Below are positions 2,453-25,281 of a DNA stretch of 33,328 nt, in pieces; position 1 is the first letter of the stretch; each line of letters starts with the position of its first letter. The notes under the pieces were generated by a model. The model saw only the letters and a list, made by a program, of their open reading frames with translations, did not search any database and was not told the DNA's origin. The stretch spans positions 1 to 33,328 of the forward strand of contig JAADFN010000024.1 in assembly GCA_013152895.1 (NCBI GenBank), read 5' to 3'. This DNA is from Acidobacteriota bacterium. GTDB taxonomy: Bacteria > Acidobacteriota > Thermoanaerobaculia > Thermoanaerobaculales > Sulfomarinibacteraceae. The position numbers were made by a program, and so were the translations under genes.

Positions 2453-2697
2453 ACAAGCCGGGCGCTGCAACGATCAACATCCAGGATCCTTTTTTCTACC
2501 AGCTTCGCAAAGAGGCTACGACGGTTCATGTTTACCTGATTTCCGGGAAACGATTGACGGGCGTCCTGCGCCGCTTCGACAGGTATTCGATCATCCTCGA
2601 GAATCGCGGCGCCGAGCAACTTGTCTACAAACACGCCATCGCCAGCGTGGCCCCGGCAGGTGCCTATGCCGAACCGGTTCCAGCCGATCGCCCGTAG
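2449..2697 (+). CDS. hfq: RNA chaperone Hfq
   Basis: Hexameric Sm-like protein that helps small RNAs pair with mRNAs. The 82-residue protein shows the Sm1 region beginning QDPFF at residues 12-16 with GKRLTGVL and FDRYSIIL, and the Sm2 signature YKHAIA at residues 60-65 (YKHAIS in the best-studied members). After Sm2 only about 17 residues remain, a short Ala/Pro-rich tail unlike the long tail of E. coli Hfq. The start ATG overlaps the miaA stop (ATGA), and an AGCGAGGAAG purine stretch lies just upstream. The last 32 bases are overlapped by the start of the downstream lipoprotein gene. Presence of Hfq makes the candidate small RNA at 22459-22622 more plausible. Confidence 0.94.
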   Translation: MNKPGAATINIQDPFFYQLRKEATTVHVYLISGKRLTGVLRRFDRYSIILENRGAEQLVYKHAIASVAPAGAYAEPVPADRP

Positions 2698-12643: not shown

Positions 12644-12696
12644 TTACGCTAAGATACGGGGGACGGGGCATTGTGGACCCGCCGAGGAGAAAGTTG

Positions 12697-13773
12697 ATGC
12701 CGTTGGGACGAAGACAGCTTGGCGTGTTGAACGAGGTCGTGTGGCGGTACCTCCGTCGAGGGGTTCCCGTCTCTTCGACCCAGGTGGCTTCTGCGCCCGC
12801 CGTCAGTCTCTCCGCCGCCACGGTGCGAAATGTCATGGCCCAGCTCGAAGAGGAGGGCTTCCTGGAGCGTTCCCACCGGTCCGCCGGGAGGGTGCCGACC
12901 GACCGGGGGCTTCGCGTGTTCATCGACACGCATCGCGGCACGTCGCGGTTAAGAAGGCAGCGCGCGACGGACCTGGTGTCGCGGATCACCGTCCACCGGC
13001 GGGATCTCGTCGAGGACGTCGAGTGGGTGGCGCGCCTTATTTCCGACGTCACCCATGAGGCTGGCGTCGTGGTCCGGCCGATCGACAGGGAGCGATGCCT
13101 GGAAGCAGTCTCGTTCGTTCCGCTTGGAGACGGGAGGGTGCTGGGGGTTGTCGTCACGACGGACGGCGCGGTGGAAAAACGCGTCTTCCGGGCGCCTGCT
13201 ACCATGACGGGCGAGGAGCTGACCAGGAGCGCCAACGTCTTGAGCCGGGAGTTTCACGGGCAGAGGGTCAGCCAGATCGAGGCGGCCTTGCGCCGCGTGA
13301 GCAGTGGGGCGCATCCCGGGACCCGGCCGGGGCCGCTCCCCGGCGCCGAGGCGTCCCTTCCCCTGATGCGCGAGCTGCTCTCGGGCTTGCCCGAAAAGGT
13401 CGAGATGGCGGTCGCAGGCGCCGGGAACCTGGCCGCGTCCAGGGACTTTTCGAAAGGCCGCGAGCTGGGCACGGCGCTGGCCGTGCTCGAAGACCGGAAG
13501 AGAATTCTCGAGGCCCTGAGGCGGTTTCTCGTAGGGGACCGGACGCGTGTGATCATCGGCCGGGAGTCCGAGATCACGGCGCAGGGCAATCTCGGGATGG
13601 TCGCGATGGCCTTTTCTCAAGGCGGGAGGCGGATCGGCGCCGTCGGCGTCCTCGGACCGCGGCGGATGGATTACATGAAGATACTGCCGGTCGTGGAGCT
13701 CATCGGATCCACGTTGACCGAGATGCTCGATCAGATGGGAGCGGACGAAAATGCGGGAACGAAACATGCGTGA
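12697..13773 (+). CDS. hrcA: Heat-inducible transcription repressor HrcA
   Basis: Repressor of class I heat-shock genes that binds CIRCE operators and needs GroEL for activity in studied species. Its 358 residues are of usual length. An N-terminal winged helix (QLGVLNEVVWRYL, VSLSAATVRNVMAQLEEEGFLE, HRSAGRVPTDRGLRVFID) is followed by the GAF-like region and the C-terminal signature ALAVLEDRKRILEAL...VIIGRE, LGMVAMAF and IGAVGVLGPRRMDY. The ATG at 12697 follows GAGGAG; an in-frame GTG eight codons earlier has no ribosome site. It heads an eight-gene run on this strand. No CIRCE-like TTAGCACTC-N9-GAGTGCTAA can be seen in the 89 bp upstream. Confidence 0.94.
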   Translation: MPLGRRQLGVLNEVVWRYLRRGVPVSSTQVASAPAVSLSAATVRNVMAQLEEEGFLERSHRSAGRVPTDRGLRVFIDTHRGTSRLRRQRATDLVSRITVHRRDLVEDVEWVARLISDVTHEAGVVVRPIDRERCLEAVSFVPLGDGRVLGVVVTTDGAVEKRVFRAPATMTGEELTRSANVLSREFHGQRVSQIEAALRRVSSGAHPGTRPGPLPGAEASLPLMRELLSGLPEKVEMAVAGAGNLAASRDFSKGRELGTALAVLEDRKRILEALRRFLVGDRTRVIIGRESEITAQGNLGMVAMAFSQGGRRIGAVGVLGPRRMDYMKILPVVELIGSTLTEMLDQMGADENAGTKHA

Positions 13774-14434
13774 AGACGGCAAACGGGAGACGAAAGCCGG
13801 GACCGCGGCAAACGGAGAGACCGCGCCAGCGGCTCCCGCTGCACCATCTCCAGCCGAACCGGGTGATGTGGAGACGCCGCCGGCCGGGGAGGGCGGCGAG
13901 GATGAGCAGAAAACGGTCCTCGACGAGATGGACCGTCTTCGCACGGAGATGGATGATCTCAAGGAGCTGTACCTGCGGAAGCTCGCCGAGTTTGACAACT
14001 TCCGCAAGCGGGTCGAACGGGAGCGCGAGGAGATCCGGGAGACGGTCTCGGCCGATCTCGTGCGCGAGCTTGTTCCAGTGCTCGACAACTTCGAGCGTGC
14101 CCTGCAGCATGCCAGCGAGAGCGGCTTCGACGCGTTCCGCGAGGGGGTTGAGCTCATTGCCAAGCAGCTCTGGGAAGCCCTGTCGCGCCGGGGGTTGAAG
14201 AGGCTGGATCCCATCAACGAAAAGTTCGATCCGGTTTATCATGAGGCTGTTCAACGGGTAGAGGACTCCGGGCACGAGCCTGACCAGGTCGTCTCGGTTC
14301 TTGCAAAGGGGTACACCTTTGGAAAGCGCCTGGTCAGACCGGCGATGGTCGCTGTCGCCGTTGGGTCGAAAGATGGCGGGGAGACCGGCGAGGCGCCGGA
14401 GGCTGGCGCCGGGGAGAGCGAGGACCGGCCGTGA
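13751..14434 (+). CDS. grpE: Nucleotide exchange factor GrpE
   Basis: Cochaperone that releases ADP from DnaK. The 227-residue protein has a disordered Ala/Pro/Glu-rich N-terminus (about 50 residues), a long coiled coil ([30 protein letters not shown]), and the C-terminal beta domain with the family signature [22 protein letters not shown] followed by [16 protein letters not shown]. The start overlaps the hrcA end by 23 bases; a second ATG five codons later is possible. The stop overlaps the GTG start of dnaK. Confidence 0.95.
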
Positions 14435-16305
14435 GCAAGATCATCGGCATCGACCTTGGAACGACGAACTCGTGCGTTGCCGTCGTTGATGTCACCAAAC
14501 CGGTCGTTATCCCGAACCGGGAAGGCGCGCGCACAACGCCTTCTGTCGTGGCTTTTACGCAGGATGAAGAACGCCTGGTCGGCCAGATTGCCCGGCGGCA
14601 GGCGATGACCAATCCGGCGAACACCGTCTACGCGGTCAAACGGCTGATCGGCCGGCGTTTTTCGGCGACGGAGGTGCAGCGGGCCAAGGAGCTGGTGCCG
14701 TACGCCATCGTCGAGGCGTCCAACGGCGACGCGTACGTGGAGGTCCGGAACCGGCAGTACAGCCCACAGGAGATCTCGGCCCAGATTCTCACGGAGATCA
14801 AGGGGTTTGCCGAGACGTTCCTGGGAGAAGAGGTGACACAGGCCATCATCACGGTTCCGGCGTATTTCGACGACTCGCAACGCCAGGCGACGAAAGACGC
14901 GGGAACCATCGCCGGGCTCGAAGTGCTCCGGATCATCAACGAGCCGACGGCCGCCTCGCTGGCCTACGGCTTCGGGCGCGAAGGCCGCGAGACGATCGCC
15001 GTGTACGACCTCGGCGGGGGGACGTTTGATATCTCCGTGCTGGAGATCGGCGACGGCGTCTTCGAGGTCAAGTCGACGGCCGGCAACACGTTCCTCGGGG
15101 GCGAGGATTTTGATCAACGCGTGATGGCTTACCTGCTCAACGAGTTCAGGAGCACGACCGGCATCGATCTGTCCGCAGACACGATGGCGATGCAGCGGAT
15201 CAAGGAGGCGGCCGAGGCGGCCAAGTGCGAGTTGTCGACCGCCGAGGTTGCCGAGATTTCGCTTCCATTCATCGCGGCCGACGTCACCGGTCCCAAGCAT
15301 CTTCAGGTCCAGCTGACCAGGAGCCAACTCGAGGATCTCGTGCGCGATCTCGTGGAGAAGACGCTCGACCCGTGTCAGAACGCACTCGAGGCGGCGGGGT
15401 TGAACCCGGGGGAAGTCGACCAGGTAATCCTGGTTGGCGGCCAGACTCGCATGCCCCTGGTCCAGGAAACGGTGACGAGATTCTTTGGCCATCCCCCCTC
15501 CCAGGAAATCAACCCGGACGAGGTCGTTGGGATCGGAGCGGCCATCCAGGGCGGCATCCTTCAGGGCGAGGTCAAGGATCTCATCCTGCTCGACGTGACG
15601 CCGCTGTCCCTCGGTATCGAAACGCACGGCGGTCTCTTCACCCGGATCATCGAGCGGAACTCGACGATCCCGACGAAGAAGTCGATGATCTTCACGACGG
15701 TCGCGGACAACCAGACGACCGTCGAGATTCACGTGCTCCAGGGCGAGCGCGGCCTGGCCGCCGAGAACCGTTCCCTGGGACGTTTCGACCTCGTCGGCGT
15801 GCCACCGGCCCCGCGCGGGGTGCCCCAGATCGAGGTGACCTTCGCCATCGACTCCAACGGCATCGTCAACGTCAGCGCGCGGGACCTTGCCACCGGCAAG
15901 GAGCAGAGCATCGAGGTCAGCCCGGCGGGCGGCCTGTCGAAGGCGGAGATCGACAGCCTGATCGCGGAGGCGGACAAGTTTCGCCAGGAGGACCAGGCCC
16001 GGCGGCGGTTGCGGCAGATGCGGAACCAGCTCGAGGGGCTGCTCTACACCAACGACCGGGTGTTCCAGGAGTTCGGGGGCAGCCTCGAGAAGGAGGACCG
16101 GGAACAGGTCCGTTCCACGTTGAGCCGGGCGAGGAAGGCGCTGAACGTGGAGGAGGAATCGGTGCTCAGCGAAGCGATCTTGGCGGTGCAGGAAGCCGCG
16201 CACGTGCTGGCGCAGGTCATCATGTACAACCCGATGTCGATGTTCGGACAATCTACGCGGAAATCGGGGAGCAATCCTGATGATGGTTCGAAGCAGGGGG
16301 AGTGA
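14431..16305 (+). CDS. dnaK: Hsp70 chaperone DnaK
   Basis: ATP-driven chaperone that binds exposed hydrophobic segments. The protein has 624 residues and a GTG start overlapping the grpE stop (GTGA). Nucleotide-binding motifs: [14 protein letters not shown] near the N-terminus, [32 protein letters not shown] and [13 protein letters not shown]. The hydrophobic linker [15 protein letters not shown] leads into the substrate-binding domain and the helical lid. The C-terminus ends [10 protein letters not shown] without the acidic EEV-type tail seen in many DnaKs, and the protein is slightly shorter than the E. coli form (638). Confidence 0.97.
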
Positions 16306-16314
16306 GTTCTTCAG

Positions 16315-17454
16315 ATGAGCACGACGGCGAAGCGAGACTACTACGAGGTTCTGAACGTCAGCCGGGACGCCGGCCTCGACGAGATCAAGGCCGCCTACCG
16401 CCGCATGGCCATCCGTTTCCATCCGGACAAGAACCCGGGTGATCCCAGGGCGGAGGAGAGGTTCAAGGAAGCCTCGGAAGCGTACGCCGTGCTCTCCGAT
16501 CCCGAGAAGCGCCAGCGGTACGATCGTTTTGGGCACGAGGGCGTCGGCGGGGAAGGCTTTACCGGGTTCAACTCCGAGTCGTTCATCGATTTCGCCGACA
16601 TTCTTGGCGACATCTTCGGGTTTGGCACGATCTTCGGATCGCGGCGAGGCCGGAGCCAGTCGGGTTCGCAACGGGGAAGCGACCTGCGCTACACCATGAG
16701 CCTGACGCTTGAAGAGGCGGCGTCGGGGGTGACGCGGACGATCCGGATCCCCAGGTTGGAAGCGTGCGAGGCGTGCGGGGGGAGCGGGGTGGAGCCGGGA
16801 ACGAGGCCGGAAACCTGCCCGACCTGCGGCGGTCGGGGCCAGGTCGGGTACCGGCGCGGTTTCCTGACGGTGGCACAGACCTGTCCCACCTGCGGCGGTC
16901 GGGGCCAGGTCGTGCAGCACCCGTGCCGGGCGTGCCGGGGCCGCGGCCGGATCGAGGACGAGACGACCCTCGAGGTCAAGGTGCCGCCGGGCGTGGACAG
17001 CGGGGTGCGCCTCCGGATGAGCGGCGAGGGGGAATCGGGCGTTCGCGGGGGCCGGCGCGGGGATCTGTACGTCATCGTTTCGGTCGAGCCCCACGACCTT
17101 TTCGAGCGCGAGGGGCCTCACCTCCACATGAAGCTTCCCATCAGCATTTTCCAGGCCGTGCTGGGCGCACGGATCACGGTGCCAACGATCTCGGGGGACG
17201 CGCGGGAGATCACGATCGATCCCGGCTCGCAGCCGGGCCAGGTCATCCGGGTCCGTGGCGCCGGGATGCCCCAGCTGGGGGGGCGCGGCGTGGGAGACCT
17301 CCTGGTGCACCTCGATGTCGTTGTGCCAAGGAAGCTCAGCAAGGAGCAGCGAAAGCTGATCGCGCAGGCCGCGGCCCTGGGCGGCGAGCAGCTGACCGAG
17401 GATGACGAGGGCCTGTTGCAGCGGCTCAGACGGCGTCTGGCCAACGAAGGCTGA
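16315..17454 (+). CDS. dnaJ: Hsp40 cochaperone DnaJ
   Basis: J-domain protein that delivers clients to DnaK and stimulates its ATPase. The 379-residue protein has a J domain at 1-75 with HPD at 36-38, a short Gly/Phe region (GGEGFTGFNSESF), and a zinc domain with four CxxCxGxG-type repeats (CEACGGSG, CPTCGGRG, CPTCGGRG, CRACRGRG). The two C-terminal beta domains end at GDLLVHLDVVVP. The second and third zinc repeats share a 25-base identical DNA stretch, suggesting recent gene conversion or strong codon constraint. It starts nine bases after dnaK. Confidence 0.96.
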   Translation: MSTTAKRDYYEVLNVSRDAGLDEIKAAYRRMAIRFHPDKNPGDPRAEERFKEASEAYAVLSDPEKRQRYDRFGHEGVGGEGFTGFNSESFIDFADILGDIFGFGTIFGSRRGRSQSGSQRGSDLRYTMSLTLEEAASGVTRTIRIPRLEACEACGGSGVEPGTRPETCPTCGGRGQVGYRRGFLTVAQTCPTCGGRGQVVQHPCRACRGRGRIEDETTLEVKVPPGVDSGVRLRMSGEGESGVRGGRRGDLYVIVSVEPHDLFEREGPHLHMKLPISIFQAVLGARITVPTISGDAREITIDPGSQPGQVIRVRGAGMPQLGGRGVGDLLVHLDVVVPRKLSKEQRKLIAQAAALGGEQLTEDDEGLLQRLRRRLANEG

Positions 17455-21014: not shown

Positions 21015-21228
21015 AGAGCCTCCATCTCTTCGATTTTATAACGCGTCAATTGTACCAGAAATACGGCTCGTAATGCAGCCGCTACGGCCCGTCTCGCGCC
21101 ACCCACAAAAGTCTGTCCAAGTGCGTCCGGAAGGCGTCCGAGTCGTGGTGCAGCTGCCGGGAAATCCCGGGTTGAAAGGGCATGCGGGGTTGCTTCGTGA
21201 TAGACTGCACCGCTGAATGGAGGCCCCG

Positions 21229-22368
21229 GTGTCGGCATCGCAGTGGATCGAAATCAGCGCGGGAGCGCTTCGCCACAACGTAGGAGTCTTTCGCCAGGTC
21301 TTGACGCCGGGGACGCGCATCGCCGCAGTGGTGAAGGCCAACGCGTACGGACACGGTGTCGATCTCGTTGCGACCCAGATCGAAGACGACGTCGATTTCT
21401 TCGCGGTTCATTCGGCCCAGGAAGCGAGGAACCTGCGGCGCATCGGGGTTGCCAAGCCGGTCCTGGTGATGGGCTTCGTTCCTCCTGGCGACATGACCGG
21501 GCTGGACGCAGATGTCCATTTTCTCGTATCGACCCCCGAGGAGCTGGAGTGGCTCGGGGAGATCCGGCAGCGGGAAGGCGTGGCGCACCCCGTTCATTTC
21601 AAGGTCGAGACCGGGACGAACCGGCAGGGGGTTCGCGTCGAAGCGCTCCAACGGCTGAGCCGCGCCGCCGCGCTGCAGGGATTGGAGATCGCCGGTCTCG
21701 CAACCCACTTCGCCAATATCGAGGATACCCTCGAACACGATTTCGCACGCCGACAGCTCGACGTGTTCAACCGGGCCATCGAACGGGTGCGGCGTGAGCT
21801 CGGATCGGATCCCCCGTTCATTCATGCCGCATGCTCGGCTGCGGCGCTCCTCTTCCGGGAGGCCGATTTCTCGATGGTTCGCGTTGGGATCGGTCTTTAT
21901 GGCCACTGGCCGTCGCGGGAGACGCGCCTTTCATGGATTCTCGAGCATGGAGAGAACGGGCTGGGCCTGGAGCCCGTTCTGAGCTGGAAGTCCGTCGTCG
22001 GACAGGTCAAGGAGGTGCCCGCGGGCGAAACCGTGGGGTACGGCCGGACGTGGCAGGCCTTGCGGCCGACGAGGCTCGCCGTGATCCCGGTCGGGTACTC
22101 CGATGGATATCCACGGGTGATGGGCAACCGTGGACGGATTCTCGCCGGTGGTCGGCCGGCGCCGGTGGTCGGCCGCGTGTGCATGAACATTTTCCTGGCC
22201 GATGTCACCGATCATCCGGGAGTCGGCATCGGCGACGAGGTTGTTCTGATCGGGCGATCGGGAGCACACGAGGTCTCGGCCGAGGAGGTGGCGAGTCTCA
22301 GTGGCACCATCAATTATGAGATCCTGTCACGTTTGTCGCCACAGATTCACAGGCGCTTGGCGCCGTGA
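21229..22368 (+). CDS. alr: Alanine racemase
   Basis: PLP enzyme that interconverts L- and D-alanine for peptidoglycan. The 379-residue protein carries the PLP lysine in VVKANAYGHG, FKVETGTNRQGV, SMVRVGIGLYG and the catalytic Tyr in ETVGYGRTW, plus GRVCMNIFLADVT near the C-terminus. Two starts compete. The GTG at 21229 follows GGAGG by five bases and gives the usual N-terminus (SASQWIEISAGALRHN). An ATG at 21217 is in frame but has no ribosome site. A TAGACT box at 21202-21207 would place transcription start just before the ribosome site. The 202 bp between the preceding gene and this one show nothing else clear. It is transcribed alone; a candidate small RNA follows. Confidence 0.95.
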   Translation: MSASQWIEISAGALRHNVGVFRQVLTPGTRIAAVVKANAYGHGVDLVATQIEDDVDFFAVHSAQEARNLRRIGVAKPVLVMGFVPPGDMTGLDADVHFLVSTPEELEWLGEIRQREGVAHPVHFKVETGTNRQGVRVEALQRLSRAAALQGLEIAGLATHFANIEDTLEHDFARRQLDVFNRAIERVRRELGSDPPFIHAACSAAALLFREADFSMVRVGIGLYGHWPSRETRLSWILEHGENGLGLEPVLSWKSVVGQVKEVPAGETVGYGRTWQALRPTRLAVIPVGYSDGYPRVMGNRGRILAGGRPAPVVGRVCMNIFLADVTDHPGVGIGDEVVLIGRSGAHEVSAEEVASLSGTINYEILSRLSPQIHRRLAP

Positions 22369-22423
22369 GCCCAGCGGTAAGTCTTCACCTATGTCGTATT
22401 TCTGTAAAACCACGCCGTGGGGG

Positions 22424-22452
22424 TGGACAACCGGGGACGGAAGTCCTATAGT
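22424..22452 (+). promoter_or_regulatory. Sigma-70 promoter of the candidate small RNA
   Basis: TGGACA (22424-22429) and TATAGT (22447-22452) each match five of six consensus bases and are separated by exactly 17 bases, among the best promoters in the window. No protein-coding start follows on this strand. A CCACG-C-CGTGG palindrome at 22410-22420 ends four bases before the -35 box and could bind a regulator. Confidence 0.65.
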
Positions 22453-22458
22453 AATGAA

Positions 22459-22622
22459 AGACGAAGACATGGGAGGGTTCCTGGAAGGCTTGCCACCTTG
22501 TGCCTACCTTTTTAGGCTTACCTTATTGAGCCAACCTTGAATCCAATCTTTAAATCCTACCGATCGAGCTTGACGGTCCCTCCCGATTTCGTTTCGTTCG
22601 CCCGGCCGCAAGGCCGGGCGAA
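22459..22622 (+). ncRNA. Candidate structured small RNA with repeated ACCUU motifs
   Basis: The 332-bp gap between alr and yqgE has markedly lower GC here than its surroundings. The expected transcript from the promoter at 22424-22452 starts near 22459. CGAA and TGGGAGGG (22462-22477) pair with CCCTCCCG and TTCG (22578-22591), closing a domain of about 130 nt. Inside, ACCTT occurs at 22495, 22506, 22520 and 22534, each separated by alternating GCC or GGC blocks that can pair, for example GCCTA-CCTTTT-TAGGC at 22502-22517. A GC hairpin with a GCAA tetraloop closes the 3' end. No long reading frame uses the region. It does not fit the SRP RNA, tmRNA or RNase P cores; a 6S-like RNA is possible. 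The rest of the gap (to 22700) shows nothing clear. Family unknown. Confidence 0.5.
22597..22622 (+). terminator. GCAA-tetraloop hairpin, possible 3' end of the small RNA
   Basis: A perfect 11-bp stem (TTCGCCCGGCC with its complement) closed by a GCAA loop. The downstream TGTTATGTG is only mildly T-rich, so termination may be weak. Minus-strand use after the yqgE stop is also possible from position, but no T-run follows on that side either. Confidence 0.5.
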
Positions 22623-22700
22623 TGTTATGTGGGGCCTGTAAGACGCCGTTCGGCGCGTCGCCGGATAGTCGGCCGTCGCGAGTCGCCCGCTCGGCGCGAG

Positions 22701-23276
22701 TCAGCTCGGGGTGCTGGAGCCCATGGTGACGAGGGCGCCAGGATCGACTCCGATCGACTTGAGGGCGGCGACCCAGCGTTCCTCGAACGGCGTCTCGAAG
22801 ATGAGCGCCGGATCAAGGGGGGCGACGAGCCACGAGCTTTCCTCGATCTCCCGTTCGAGCTGGCCGGGCGCCCAGCCGGAGTATCCGAGGATCAAGTGAT
22901 AGCGCGACGAAATGTCGCCGCGGACGAGCCTCAGGAGCGTTGCGGTGTTCCCGGAAACGGCAAGACCGTGCTCGGCCAGGACGATGCCCTCGTCGTCGGG
23001 CGGGCTCTCACTTTCAAAGAGGACGAACCCGTGAGAAGGCTCGACCGGCCCGCCGCCAAGCACGGGGGGGAGGTCGCGGCCGGCCGGCTTCTCTCCGAGC
23101 TCTCCGAGGACGTCATCCATGGTGACGTCAAGAGGCCGGTTGATGACGAGGCCGAATGCGCCCTCGCCCGGAGAGTGAACCCCGAGCAGCACCACCGTGT
23201 GCCAGAAGTTCGGATCGGCGAGCGCCGGCATGGCGATCAGCAAACTTCCTGCGAGCGGGGTCGTATCCGTGCTCAT
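22701..23276 (-). CDS. yqgE: YqgE/AlgH family protein (UPF0301)
   Basis: A 191-residue protein of the conserved YqgE/AlgH family, whose molecular function is not settled. The pattern is typical: LAGSLLIAMPALADPNFWHTVVLLGVHSPGEGAFGLVINRP, GGPVEPSHGFVLF, then YHLILGYSGWAPGQLEREIEESSWLV. The ATG at 23276 begins the family match; the frame remains open further upstream with no similarity. No ribosome site is seen, but TATCAT lies exactly six bases before the ATG, fitting a leaderless transcript. The 192 bp up to the malic enzyme gene contain nothing recognised. Confidence 0.93.
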   Translation of the reverse strand: MSTDTTPLAGSLLIAMPALADPNFWHTVVLLGVHSPGEGAFGLVINRPLDVTMDDVLGELGEKPAGRDLPPVLGGGPVEPSHGFVLFESESPPDDEGIVLAEHGLAVSGNTATLLRLVRGDISSRYHLILGYSGWAPGQLEREIEESSWLVAPLDPALIFETPFEERWVAALKSIGVDPGALVTMGSSTPS

Positions 23277-23468
23277 ACGTACATGATACCGCGCCTGGAA
23301 ACGGGGGCCATGGCAGGTTTTGCCGGGGCTCCCGTTTGGGGACGCTTCGAAGGGCCTCCGCGCCGCGCGCTTCTTTCGCGAAACGTCTCTGACGGTTATC
23401 CGCCAGGCGGCAGCGAGCGGCGGGGTGGCCACGGCTTCAAGGATCCGAGCGCCCTGCGGCGAGCTGGC

Positions 23469-24833
23469 TCATGACCGGCCGGGAGCGCCCTCGAAGTAGC
23501 CGGTCAGGTCCTGGCGCGCGAGGCCCTGGTCGAGGGCCGTCCGCGCCACCGCCCGCGCGACGGCCCGGTGGACGGCGCGGTTGAGCGGGTTCGGCACCAG
23601 GTCGCCTTCCGGTGTCATGTCGGCAATCGCGTGAGCGGCGGCCAGGTACATCTCCATCGTCAGCTTCGGCGTGCCCGAGTCGACGGCGCCGCGCAGGATC
23701 CCCGGGAAGCCGAGGACGTTGTTGACAACCTTGCCGTCGGCGGCGAACGCCGCGCCGGCCGCAAGGGCCTCCTCCGGCTCGATTTCGGGCGACGGGTTGG
23801 ACAGGGCCAGGATGATCTGTCCCGGCCGCACCCAGGCCTTCTTGATGAGACCGGGAACGCCGGTCGTCGAGACGACGACGTCGCAGGCATCCATGATTTC
23901 CCGCAAGGAAGCGGCCCGGCCGCCGGCCTTTTCCAGGCGCCTGGTGGCGCCTGGATCGAGATCGGCGCCGAGCACGGGACGACCACTCTCCTGCATCATC
24001 ATCCTGGCGATGGACAGGCCCGCGGCCCCGAGGCCGATCTGCCCGACGGTGACCTCGTCCAACGATCTTTCGACCTTGCGAAGCGCGTTCATGAGGGCTG
24101 CCGCAACGACAACGGCCGTCCCATGCTGGTCGTCGTGCATCACGGGGCGGTCAAGCGTCTCGATCAGCGCTTCCTCGATGTCGAAGCACCGGGGCGCCGA
24201 AATATCTTCGAGCTGGATCGCGCCGAAGGTCAGGGCGATGTTCTGGACGGTCCGGATGATGTCCTTGGTGTCCTTCGTCTTGAGAAGGATCGGCATGCCG
24301 GAGAGGCCGACGAGGCTCTCCATGAGAGCGGCCTTGCCCTCCATGACCGGCATGCCTGCCAGGGGACCGATGTCGCCGAGGCCGAGAATGGCGGTTCCGT
24401 CCGTGACGATGGCGATCAGGTGCGGAATCGCCGTGTAGCGGCGGGCCTGGGAGGCGTCATTTTCAATGACGCGGCAGACGCCTGCGACGCCGGGCGTGTA
24501 GACCCGGCGCAAATCCTGCAACGTGTCGATCTTGTACCGGCTCCGCACGGCGATCTTGCCGCCCTGGTGCAGCTCCAGGACATCGTCCCGGATCTCGACA
24601 AGCTCGGATCCGTCGGTCGCCTTGACCGCCTCGACCACCAGATCGAGGTCCGACTGCTGCGACACGTACACGACGATGTCCCGGACGACGTGTTTGTGGT
24701 CCATCCGGATGAGAGAAATCTCACCGGCCAGAGCGCCGGCATTTCCCAGGGCGACGAGCAACTGGCCGAGCGCGCCGGCCCGCTGCTCGTTCCGGACCCG
24801 GATCGTTCGCATGATGCTGTACTCAGTCCACAT
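23469..24833 (-). CDS. NAD(P)-dependent malic enzyme with N-terminal ACT domain
   Basis: Oxidative decarboxylation of malate to pyruvate and CO2. The 454-residue protein starts with an ACT regulatory domain at about 9-85 (RTIRVRNEQRAGALGQLLVAL...RDIVVYVS), then the short bacterial malic enzyme core: VYTPGVAGVCR at 111-121, VTDGTAILGLGDIGP at 143-157, GKAAL with Lys167, the metal-binding LEDI, DDQHGTA, and the nucleotide-binding IGLGAAGLSIA. The ACT domain suggests control by an amino acid or other small ligand. A strong AAGGAGG precedes the ATG at 24833. Immediately upstream lie two tandem palindromic elements; the element edge (TATGCT on this strand) may supply the -10 box. Confidence 0.93.
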   Translation of the reverse strand: MWTEYSIMRTIRVRNEQRAGALGQLLVALGNAGALAGEISLIRMDHKHVVRDIVVYVSQQSDLDLVVEAVKATDGSELVEIRDDVLELHQGGKIAVRSRYKIDTLQDLRRVYTPGVAGVCRVIENDASQARRYTAIPHLIAIVTDGTAILGLGDIGPLAGMPVMEGKAALMESLVGLSGMPILLKTKDTKDIIRTVQNIALTFGAIQLEDISAPRCFDIEEALIETLDRPVMHDDQHGTAVVVAAALMNALRKVERSLDEVTVGQIGLGAAGLSIARMMMQESGRPVLGADLDPGATRRLEKAGGRAASLREIMDACDVVVSTTGVPGLIKKAWVRPGQIILALSNPSPEIEPEEALAAGAAFAADGKVVNNVLGFPGILRGAVDSGTPKLTMEMYLAAAHAIADMTPEGDLVPNPLNRAVHRAVARAVARTALDQGLARQDLTGYFEGAPGRS

Positions 24834-24844
24834 ACAACCTCCTT

Positions 24845-25027
24845 AGCCAGCATATCTCACGCGCTTCCTGCTGCGACCGAGGATACGCCGGCCATTGCGG
24901 TGTTTCTCCCGGCGGTGTCGCCTGCGGCGTGCCGCGAGCACGCCTCGGCCCCACCTTGGTCGAAACGCCACACCGGCGGGCGTCTCCCCGGTCTCGCGAC
25001 GAAAGTCCGTGAGATCTGCTGGCTGCC
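24845..25027 (+). repeat. Palindromic element, tandem copy 1
   Basis: A 168-bp core (24851-25018) bounded by CATATCTCAC and its near-complement GTGAGATCTG. The two halves are imperfect inverted repeats along their length: blocks such as ACCGaGGAtACGCC, GGCC and GTTTCtCC on the left recur as the reverse complement on the right, and the middle holds CGGC-GT-GCCG. It is nearly identical to copy 2, which starts 179 bp later. The 11-bp junction, CTGGC-T-GCCAG at 25019-25029, is itself a perfect palindrome. The left edge touches the ribosome site of the malic enzyme gene. Confidence 0.92.
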
Positions 25028-25206
25028 AGCATATCTCACGCGCTTCCTGCTGCGACCGAGGATACGCCGGCCATTACGGTGTTTCTCCCGGCGGTGTCGC
25101 CTGCGGCGTGCCGCGAGCACGCCTCGGTCCCACCCTGGTCGAAACGCCACACGGGCGGGCGTCTCCCCGGTCTCGCGACGATGCTCCGTGAGATATGCGG
25201 GTTCGG
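25028..25206 (+). repeat. Palindromic element, tandem copy 2
   Basis: A second 168-bp core (25030-25197) with perfectly complementary ends CATATCTCAC and GTGAGATATG, differing from copy 1 at only a handful of bases. The right tail GCGGGTTC matches the ends of the copies at 4585 and 8353. Together the two copies fill most of the 448-bp gap between the malic enzyme and the TPR gene. The rest (25207-25281) shows nothing recognisable. No protein is credible here: frames through the element are open on several strands simply because of its composition. Confidence 0.92.
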
Positions 25207-25281
25207 CGCCGCCCTGGACGGGGCAACTCCCATGTATGTATCGGTTCCCCGGCGGCAGGTGTCAAGCGGGTCACGGCCGTG

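Follow-up and report, generated by a model that had tools for sequence, protein, structure and literature searches.

A short element on the forward strand of an Acidobacteriota contig is, with high confidence, a real and conserved small RNA gene, and it is best read as a member of a putative, previously uncatalogued family of stand-alone, trans-acting regulatory RNAs. It lies in a stretch of 33,328 nucleotides (the window; contig JAADFN010000024.1 of assembly GCA_013152895.1), whose source organism is represented only by a metagenome-assembled genome. Comparison among homologs shows the core of the predicted RNA to be a rod of stems, P1-P2-P3, that encloses a C-rich, G-poor loop (Table 1). The conserved unit within this loop is a series of about six spaced CC clusters, and not the ACCUU motif that the earlier note on this DNA had regarded as the repeated unit. 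Two readings of what the clusters might do, titration of a protein and base pairing through several seeds, are close rivals, of which the former is somewhat the more likely.

Table 1. Features of the element and its surroundings, in window coordinates
Feature	Position	Strand	Remarks
Sigma-70 type promoter, TGGACA-17-TATAGT	22424..22452	+	TGGACA 22424-22429, 17 nt, TATAGT 22447-22452
Putative transcript, about 165 nt	22459..22627	+	both ends predicted from promoter and terminator hairpin
Outer stem P0, 5' strand GACGAAG	22460..22466	+	pairs with 22587-22593
Stem P1, 5' strand GGGAGGG	22471..22477	+	pairs with 22578-22584; 92-96% of cells paired
Stem P1, 3' strand CCCTCCC	22578..22584	+	partner of 22471-22477
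Stem P2, 5' strand	22481..22483	+	pairs with 22574-22576; 97% of cells paired
Stem P3, 5' strand	22487..22492	+	pairs with 22565-22570; 77-81% paired, changes on both sides
C-rich, G-poor loop with six CC clusters	22493..22564	+	CC clusters conserved in the alignment
CC clusters	22493-22497, 22503-22508, 22521-22522, 22531-22536, 22543-22544, 22556-22561	+	
Hairpin A (CCUA/UAGG)	22503..22516	+	72% paired
Hairpin B (GGCU/AGCC in the window)	22515..22532	+	91-99% paired; ACC site in loop
Terminator hairpin, 11 bp, GCAA loop	22597..22622	+	22597-22607 pairs with 22612-22622
Alanine racemase, upstream neighbour	21217..22368	+	not constant in the family
YqgE/AlgH (DUF179), convergent downstream neighbour	22701..23432	-	kept in 14 family loci
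Hfq domain, candidate partner, unlinked to the element	2479..2658	+	Pfam E 1.1e-21

The near-perfect sigma-70 type promoter that had first drawn attention to the element is indeed present and agrees with the consensus at 10 of 12 positions, one such site being found against 0.1 expected in shuffled sequence; by eye, 16 of the 19 family homologs keep its TGGACA hexamer unchanged. The hairpin at the other end is followed by a U run in most homologs, which is weak in the window and in its closest relatives, and a scan of the window for terminator-like sites called none, the hairpin having no real U run there. Other elements described in the earlier note were likewise recovered: the closing GC stem with its CGAA/TTCG extension corresponds to P1 and P0 (the 3' strand of the latter contains TTCG), and the four ACCUU copies start at exactly 22495, 22506, 22520 and 22534. 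It is unlikely that the element encodes a small protein, since the indel lengths among the aligned homologs are not multiples of three and neither a start codon nor a reading frame is kept. With Rfam 15 at the gathering threshold, no family was matched in the window or in 11 homologous loci. A relaxed search of the element returned only weak matches, to CRISPR-DR9, CC0196 and Yfr1, and these identities were rejected because the matches cover nothing but the GC-rich terminator hairpin. A weak tmRNA match (38.5 bits, under the gathering score of 47) was also noted in one of the loci (L057, 2985-3060), near the end of the examined stretch.

Conservation, on which the earlier note had staked its call, is borne out within the family. 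A covariance model built from eight homologs (R1) places exactly one copy in 19 of the 20 genomes of the family, with E values from 1e-12 to 1e-26, and the sole genome that lacks a copy is 65% complete. Clear homologs found by blastn over 59 relatives are confined to the same family, and R1 gives one weak match in the sister family. Larger models (R2 and R3) return the same picture in sets of 37 genomes from the order Thermoanaerobaculales, 148 from its class and 396 from its phylum, and nothing credible was found in the class and phylum genomes outside the family and its sister family. A pattern search across the genomes of 84,980 species yielded 15 matches, among them Candidatus Sulfomarinibacter kjeldsenii, and all of them are labelled Acidobacteria, Holophagae or Thermoanaerobaculia/Thermoanaerobaculales. 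No copy was found in the viral contigs searched. Two weak model matches (L159 and L160) were discarded, as the sequence there reads as coding.

The sister family holds seven divergent copies in total. One of these (L058, genome G026) led, by DNA search, to five further copies in the same genus, and R2 still places the core in four copies that were left out of that model (L138-L141; E 0.0006 to 0.0064). In the six homologs of one sister-family genus (L137-L142) the sigma-70 type promoter is replaced, at a similar upstream position, by boxes of sigma-54 type with the form TGGCAYG-N4-TTGC, invariant in 6/6; five of the six have CC clusters that are fewer or less regular. An extra 5' hairpin is seen ahead of the core in the same loci. 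The seventh copy (L158, genome G034), which scores only 29.5 bits, belongs to another genus of the sister family and carries TGGACA and TAGAAT boxes like those of the window, as well as a hairpin that has a long run of T. Since window-like boxes occur in this second genus, the sigma-70 type promoter is probably ancestral, one genus having switched to sigma-54. A small RNA gene with a sigma-54 promoter has a precedent in GlmY of enterobacteria (PMC6075780), which is also of decoy type; no sequence relation to GlmY is claimed, and the present case differs in that promoters of both types serve homologous RNAs, each in its own lineages.

The predicted fold is far more stable than expected from composition, with an energy of -68.7 kcal/mol against -46.5 +/- 3.8 in shuffled sequences (z -5.9), to which the terminator hairpin contributes part. 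The closing stem P1 consists of seven pairs plus one U-G wobble, and P0 is limited to the genus of the window and a few near relatives. In most homologs hairpin B takes the form GGCC/GGCC, its innermost pair changing from U-A to C-G; hairpins A and B would be mutually exclusive, because both use the same GG. In an alignment of 25 homologs, P1, P2, P3 and hairpin B have 92%, 97%, 77% and 91% of their cells paired. Double-sided changes occur in 29 cells, where shuffling gives 12.8 +/- 2.5, and the covariation score of 0.169 compares with a shuffled value of 0.099; 0/500 shuffles reach either figure, although these counts lean towards the P1-P2-P3-B fold because the alignment had been fitted to that model. 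When the stem partners are slid by one column, pairing falls to at most 58%.

The loop is about 75-78 nt long, with a C/G ratio of 2.3 in the window. The conserved ACCUU loops that the earlier note proposed to look for in relatives do not hold up, as homologs carry from 0 to 4 copies of ACCUU; what is kept is the CC clusters, which mostly read CCNRCC, number six in most homologs and lie nearly always 10-16 nt apart. The 26 loops compared contain 121 motifs of the form CCn1-2CC, where dinucleotide shuffling yields 57 +/- 7 (0/500 shuffles reach the observed count), and the variation in cluster spacing is 0.155 in homologs against 0.36 in shuffled loops, both tests overstating independence as the homologs are related to one another. 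Identity is 0.84 in the CC columns and 0.61 in the other loop columns, and the conserved CC sites are mostly unpaired. The middle bases of the clusters vary from site to site (CCUACC, CCAACC, CCUGCC, CCUUCC). Variable middles between constant CC pairs suit a reader of CC more than a single complementary target, and the near-constant number and spacing of the clusters fit a multi-subunit protein that reads two-base sites.

On these grounds the RNA is tentatively read as a multivalent sponge that titrates a multimeric protein recognizing short C-rich sites, a proposal to which we give somewhat less than an even chance. When made, the RNA would offer several equivalent sites at once, and the titrated protein would leave its normal RNA targets free. 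Points against a sponge are that two of the clusters are partly hidden within hairpins A and B, and that the clusters are fewer or less regular in five of the six sigma-54 homologs. The named candidate that would fit best is Rho, with six subunits that each read a short pyrimidine-C site; any other ring or multidomain protein of like specificity would also fit. Rho utilization (rut) sites span 70-80 nt, with C in excess over G and cytosines every 11-13 nt (PMC6407284), and the loop matches this description of a Rho-binding RNA in its length (about 78 nt), its excess of C over G and its six near-regular clusters. On the other hand, rut sites act in nascent mRNAs and lead to termination, and their cytosine spacing is tighter than the 10-16 nt seen here, whereas the C-rich stretch of the element sits inside a short RNA, with a conserved stem around it and a hairpin of intrinsic type after it. 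A motif scan of about 728 kb of the genome for the Rho gene found nothing. Moreover, sequence that resembles a rut site is no rarity: of 55,738 sample windows, 26 match as well as the element does. The resemblance to Rho ligands is therefore suggestive only, and the RNA would have to be abundant to compete for Rho. The specific prediction that the RNA is a dedicated decoy of the Rho hexamer, with six CC sites, one per subunit, is accordingly graded as improbable; in such a decoy the sites would engage the primary binding sites of Rho, while the closing stem and the terminator would block threading and movement.

The closest competitor of the sponge, which we regard as a serious possibility and still tentative, is an Hfq-assisted base-pairing small RNA that would present several redundant C-rich seeds to G-rich stretches of mRNA. 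Hfq is encoded in the window, as the earlier note had stated, and in 36 of the 37 genomes of the order. A U run after a hairpin is the usual Hfq site, and most homologs have one at their 3' end, weak in the window and its closest relatives; the mostly unpaired state of the CC sites would also suit seeds. As a side observation, a second, divergent Hfq-like domain lies elsewhere in the same genome (G000:C175:17142-17312, E 1.4e-8), and both domains occur in nearly all genomes of the order. Precedents exist in the alpha-r8 sibling small RNAs, which carry an anti-Shine-Dalgarno 10-mer (PMC12559287), and in LhrC1-5 of Listeria, likewise stand-alone, with redundant C-rich sites in loops or single-stranded parts (PMC4132741). 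LhrC differs in having five copies and three UCCC sites, which are complementary to sequences of GGGA type, whereas the element has about six CC clusters with variable middles, follows no UCCC or CCUCC rule and occurs once per genome; the Rfam search reveals no sequence relation between the two.

The target statistics do not favour pairing. In stretches totalling 728 kb, about a quarter of one genome with rough gene starts, the loop pairs with 440 translation starts no better than shuffled loops do (30 of 60 shuffles are at least as good), and GGYNGG, to which CCNRCC is complementary, shows no enrichment ahead of starts (60 occurrences, against 59 in the -60..-30 stretch). No homolog has CCUCC in its loop, the Shine-Dalgarno core being GGAGG here. 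The absence of CCUCC and the shuffled level of pairing weaken the idea that ACCUU acts as an anti-Shine-Dalgarno sequence, and a global anti-Shine-Dalgarno mimic finds no support in the same evidence. What remains of the original small RNA proposal is a conserved gene with a promoter of its own and no Rfam family, and what lacks support is the ACCUU motif as such and the role assigned to it. The best single candidate target, rpsM, scored highest of the sampled starts and shows two complementary stretches, which arise from the rpmJ end and the rpsM start; it was dropped because the complementarity is not conserved in relatives. A 13-nt match to secY lies inside coding sequence and is expected by chance.

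It is very unlikely that the element is a riboswitch or attenuator leader of a neighbouring gene. A compact structure followed by a terminator hairpin would agree with a leader, but in the 14 loci with a downstream YqgE gene this gene runs in the opposite direction, the neighbours differ in other loci, and the sister-family copies, judged by L139 and L141, adjoin the end of secA; a downstream gene that is usually convergent argues against it. The upstream gene varies by lineage, comprising alanine racemase, a glycosyltransferase-like protein, TatD and others, of which the glycosyltransferase and TatD names in relatives come from sequences read by eye. A convergent downstream gene together with a changing upstream gene fits a trans-acting RNA. 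Further away in the window, about 5 kb upstream of the element, 12673-17454 holds the heat-shock genes hrcA-grpE-dnaK-dnaJ, after which come prmA, a gene for an rsmE-like methyltransferase, and tatD. At 24823-25233, translations of open reading frames on both strands repeat the same peptides (for example ATPPGETP / AAGDTAGRNT), which suggests that the DNA separating malic enzyme from the following gene contains a short tandem repeat.

The main alternative of the earlier note, a divergent 6S RNA (RF00013) that binds RNA polymerase, shares with the element a long rod shape and a length of about 165 nt; it is rejected as highly improbable because a true 6S RNA is encoded separately on another contig of this genome (G000:C37:24338-24495; its 66 bits exceed the gathering score), and in most relatives as well, and because no RF00013 match appears in 22300-22800 even at E 10. 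A sponge for CsrA of the CsrB/RsmZ type would have the same overall design, with many equivalent short sites on one RNA, but can be given practically no weight, since CsrA (Pfam PF02599) is found in 0 of the 37 genomes of Thermoanaerobaculales by a search that does find CsrA in control genomes, and the repeated sites here are CC and not GGA, which is confined to the P1-P3 stem region.

Acidobacteriota are abundant in soils and sediments, and their regulatory RNAs are little described; none was found in the literature searched. The element would add a single-copy, family-wide RNA in an order that lacks CsrA, and its design, a rod bearing some six spaced CC sites, is unlike the catalogued families. 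The change of promoter type between lineages would offer a natural experiment on the rewiring of a regulatory RNA. If the partner were Rho, this RNA would control termination across the genome, and if the specific decoy prediction were true, its induction, through sigma-54 in one genus, would relieve Rho-dependent termination genome-wide.
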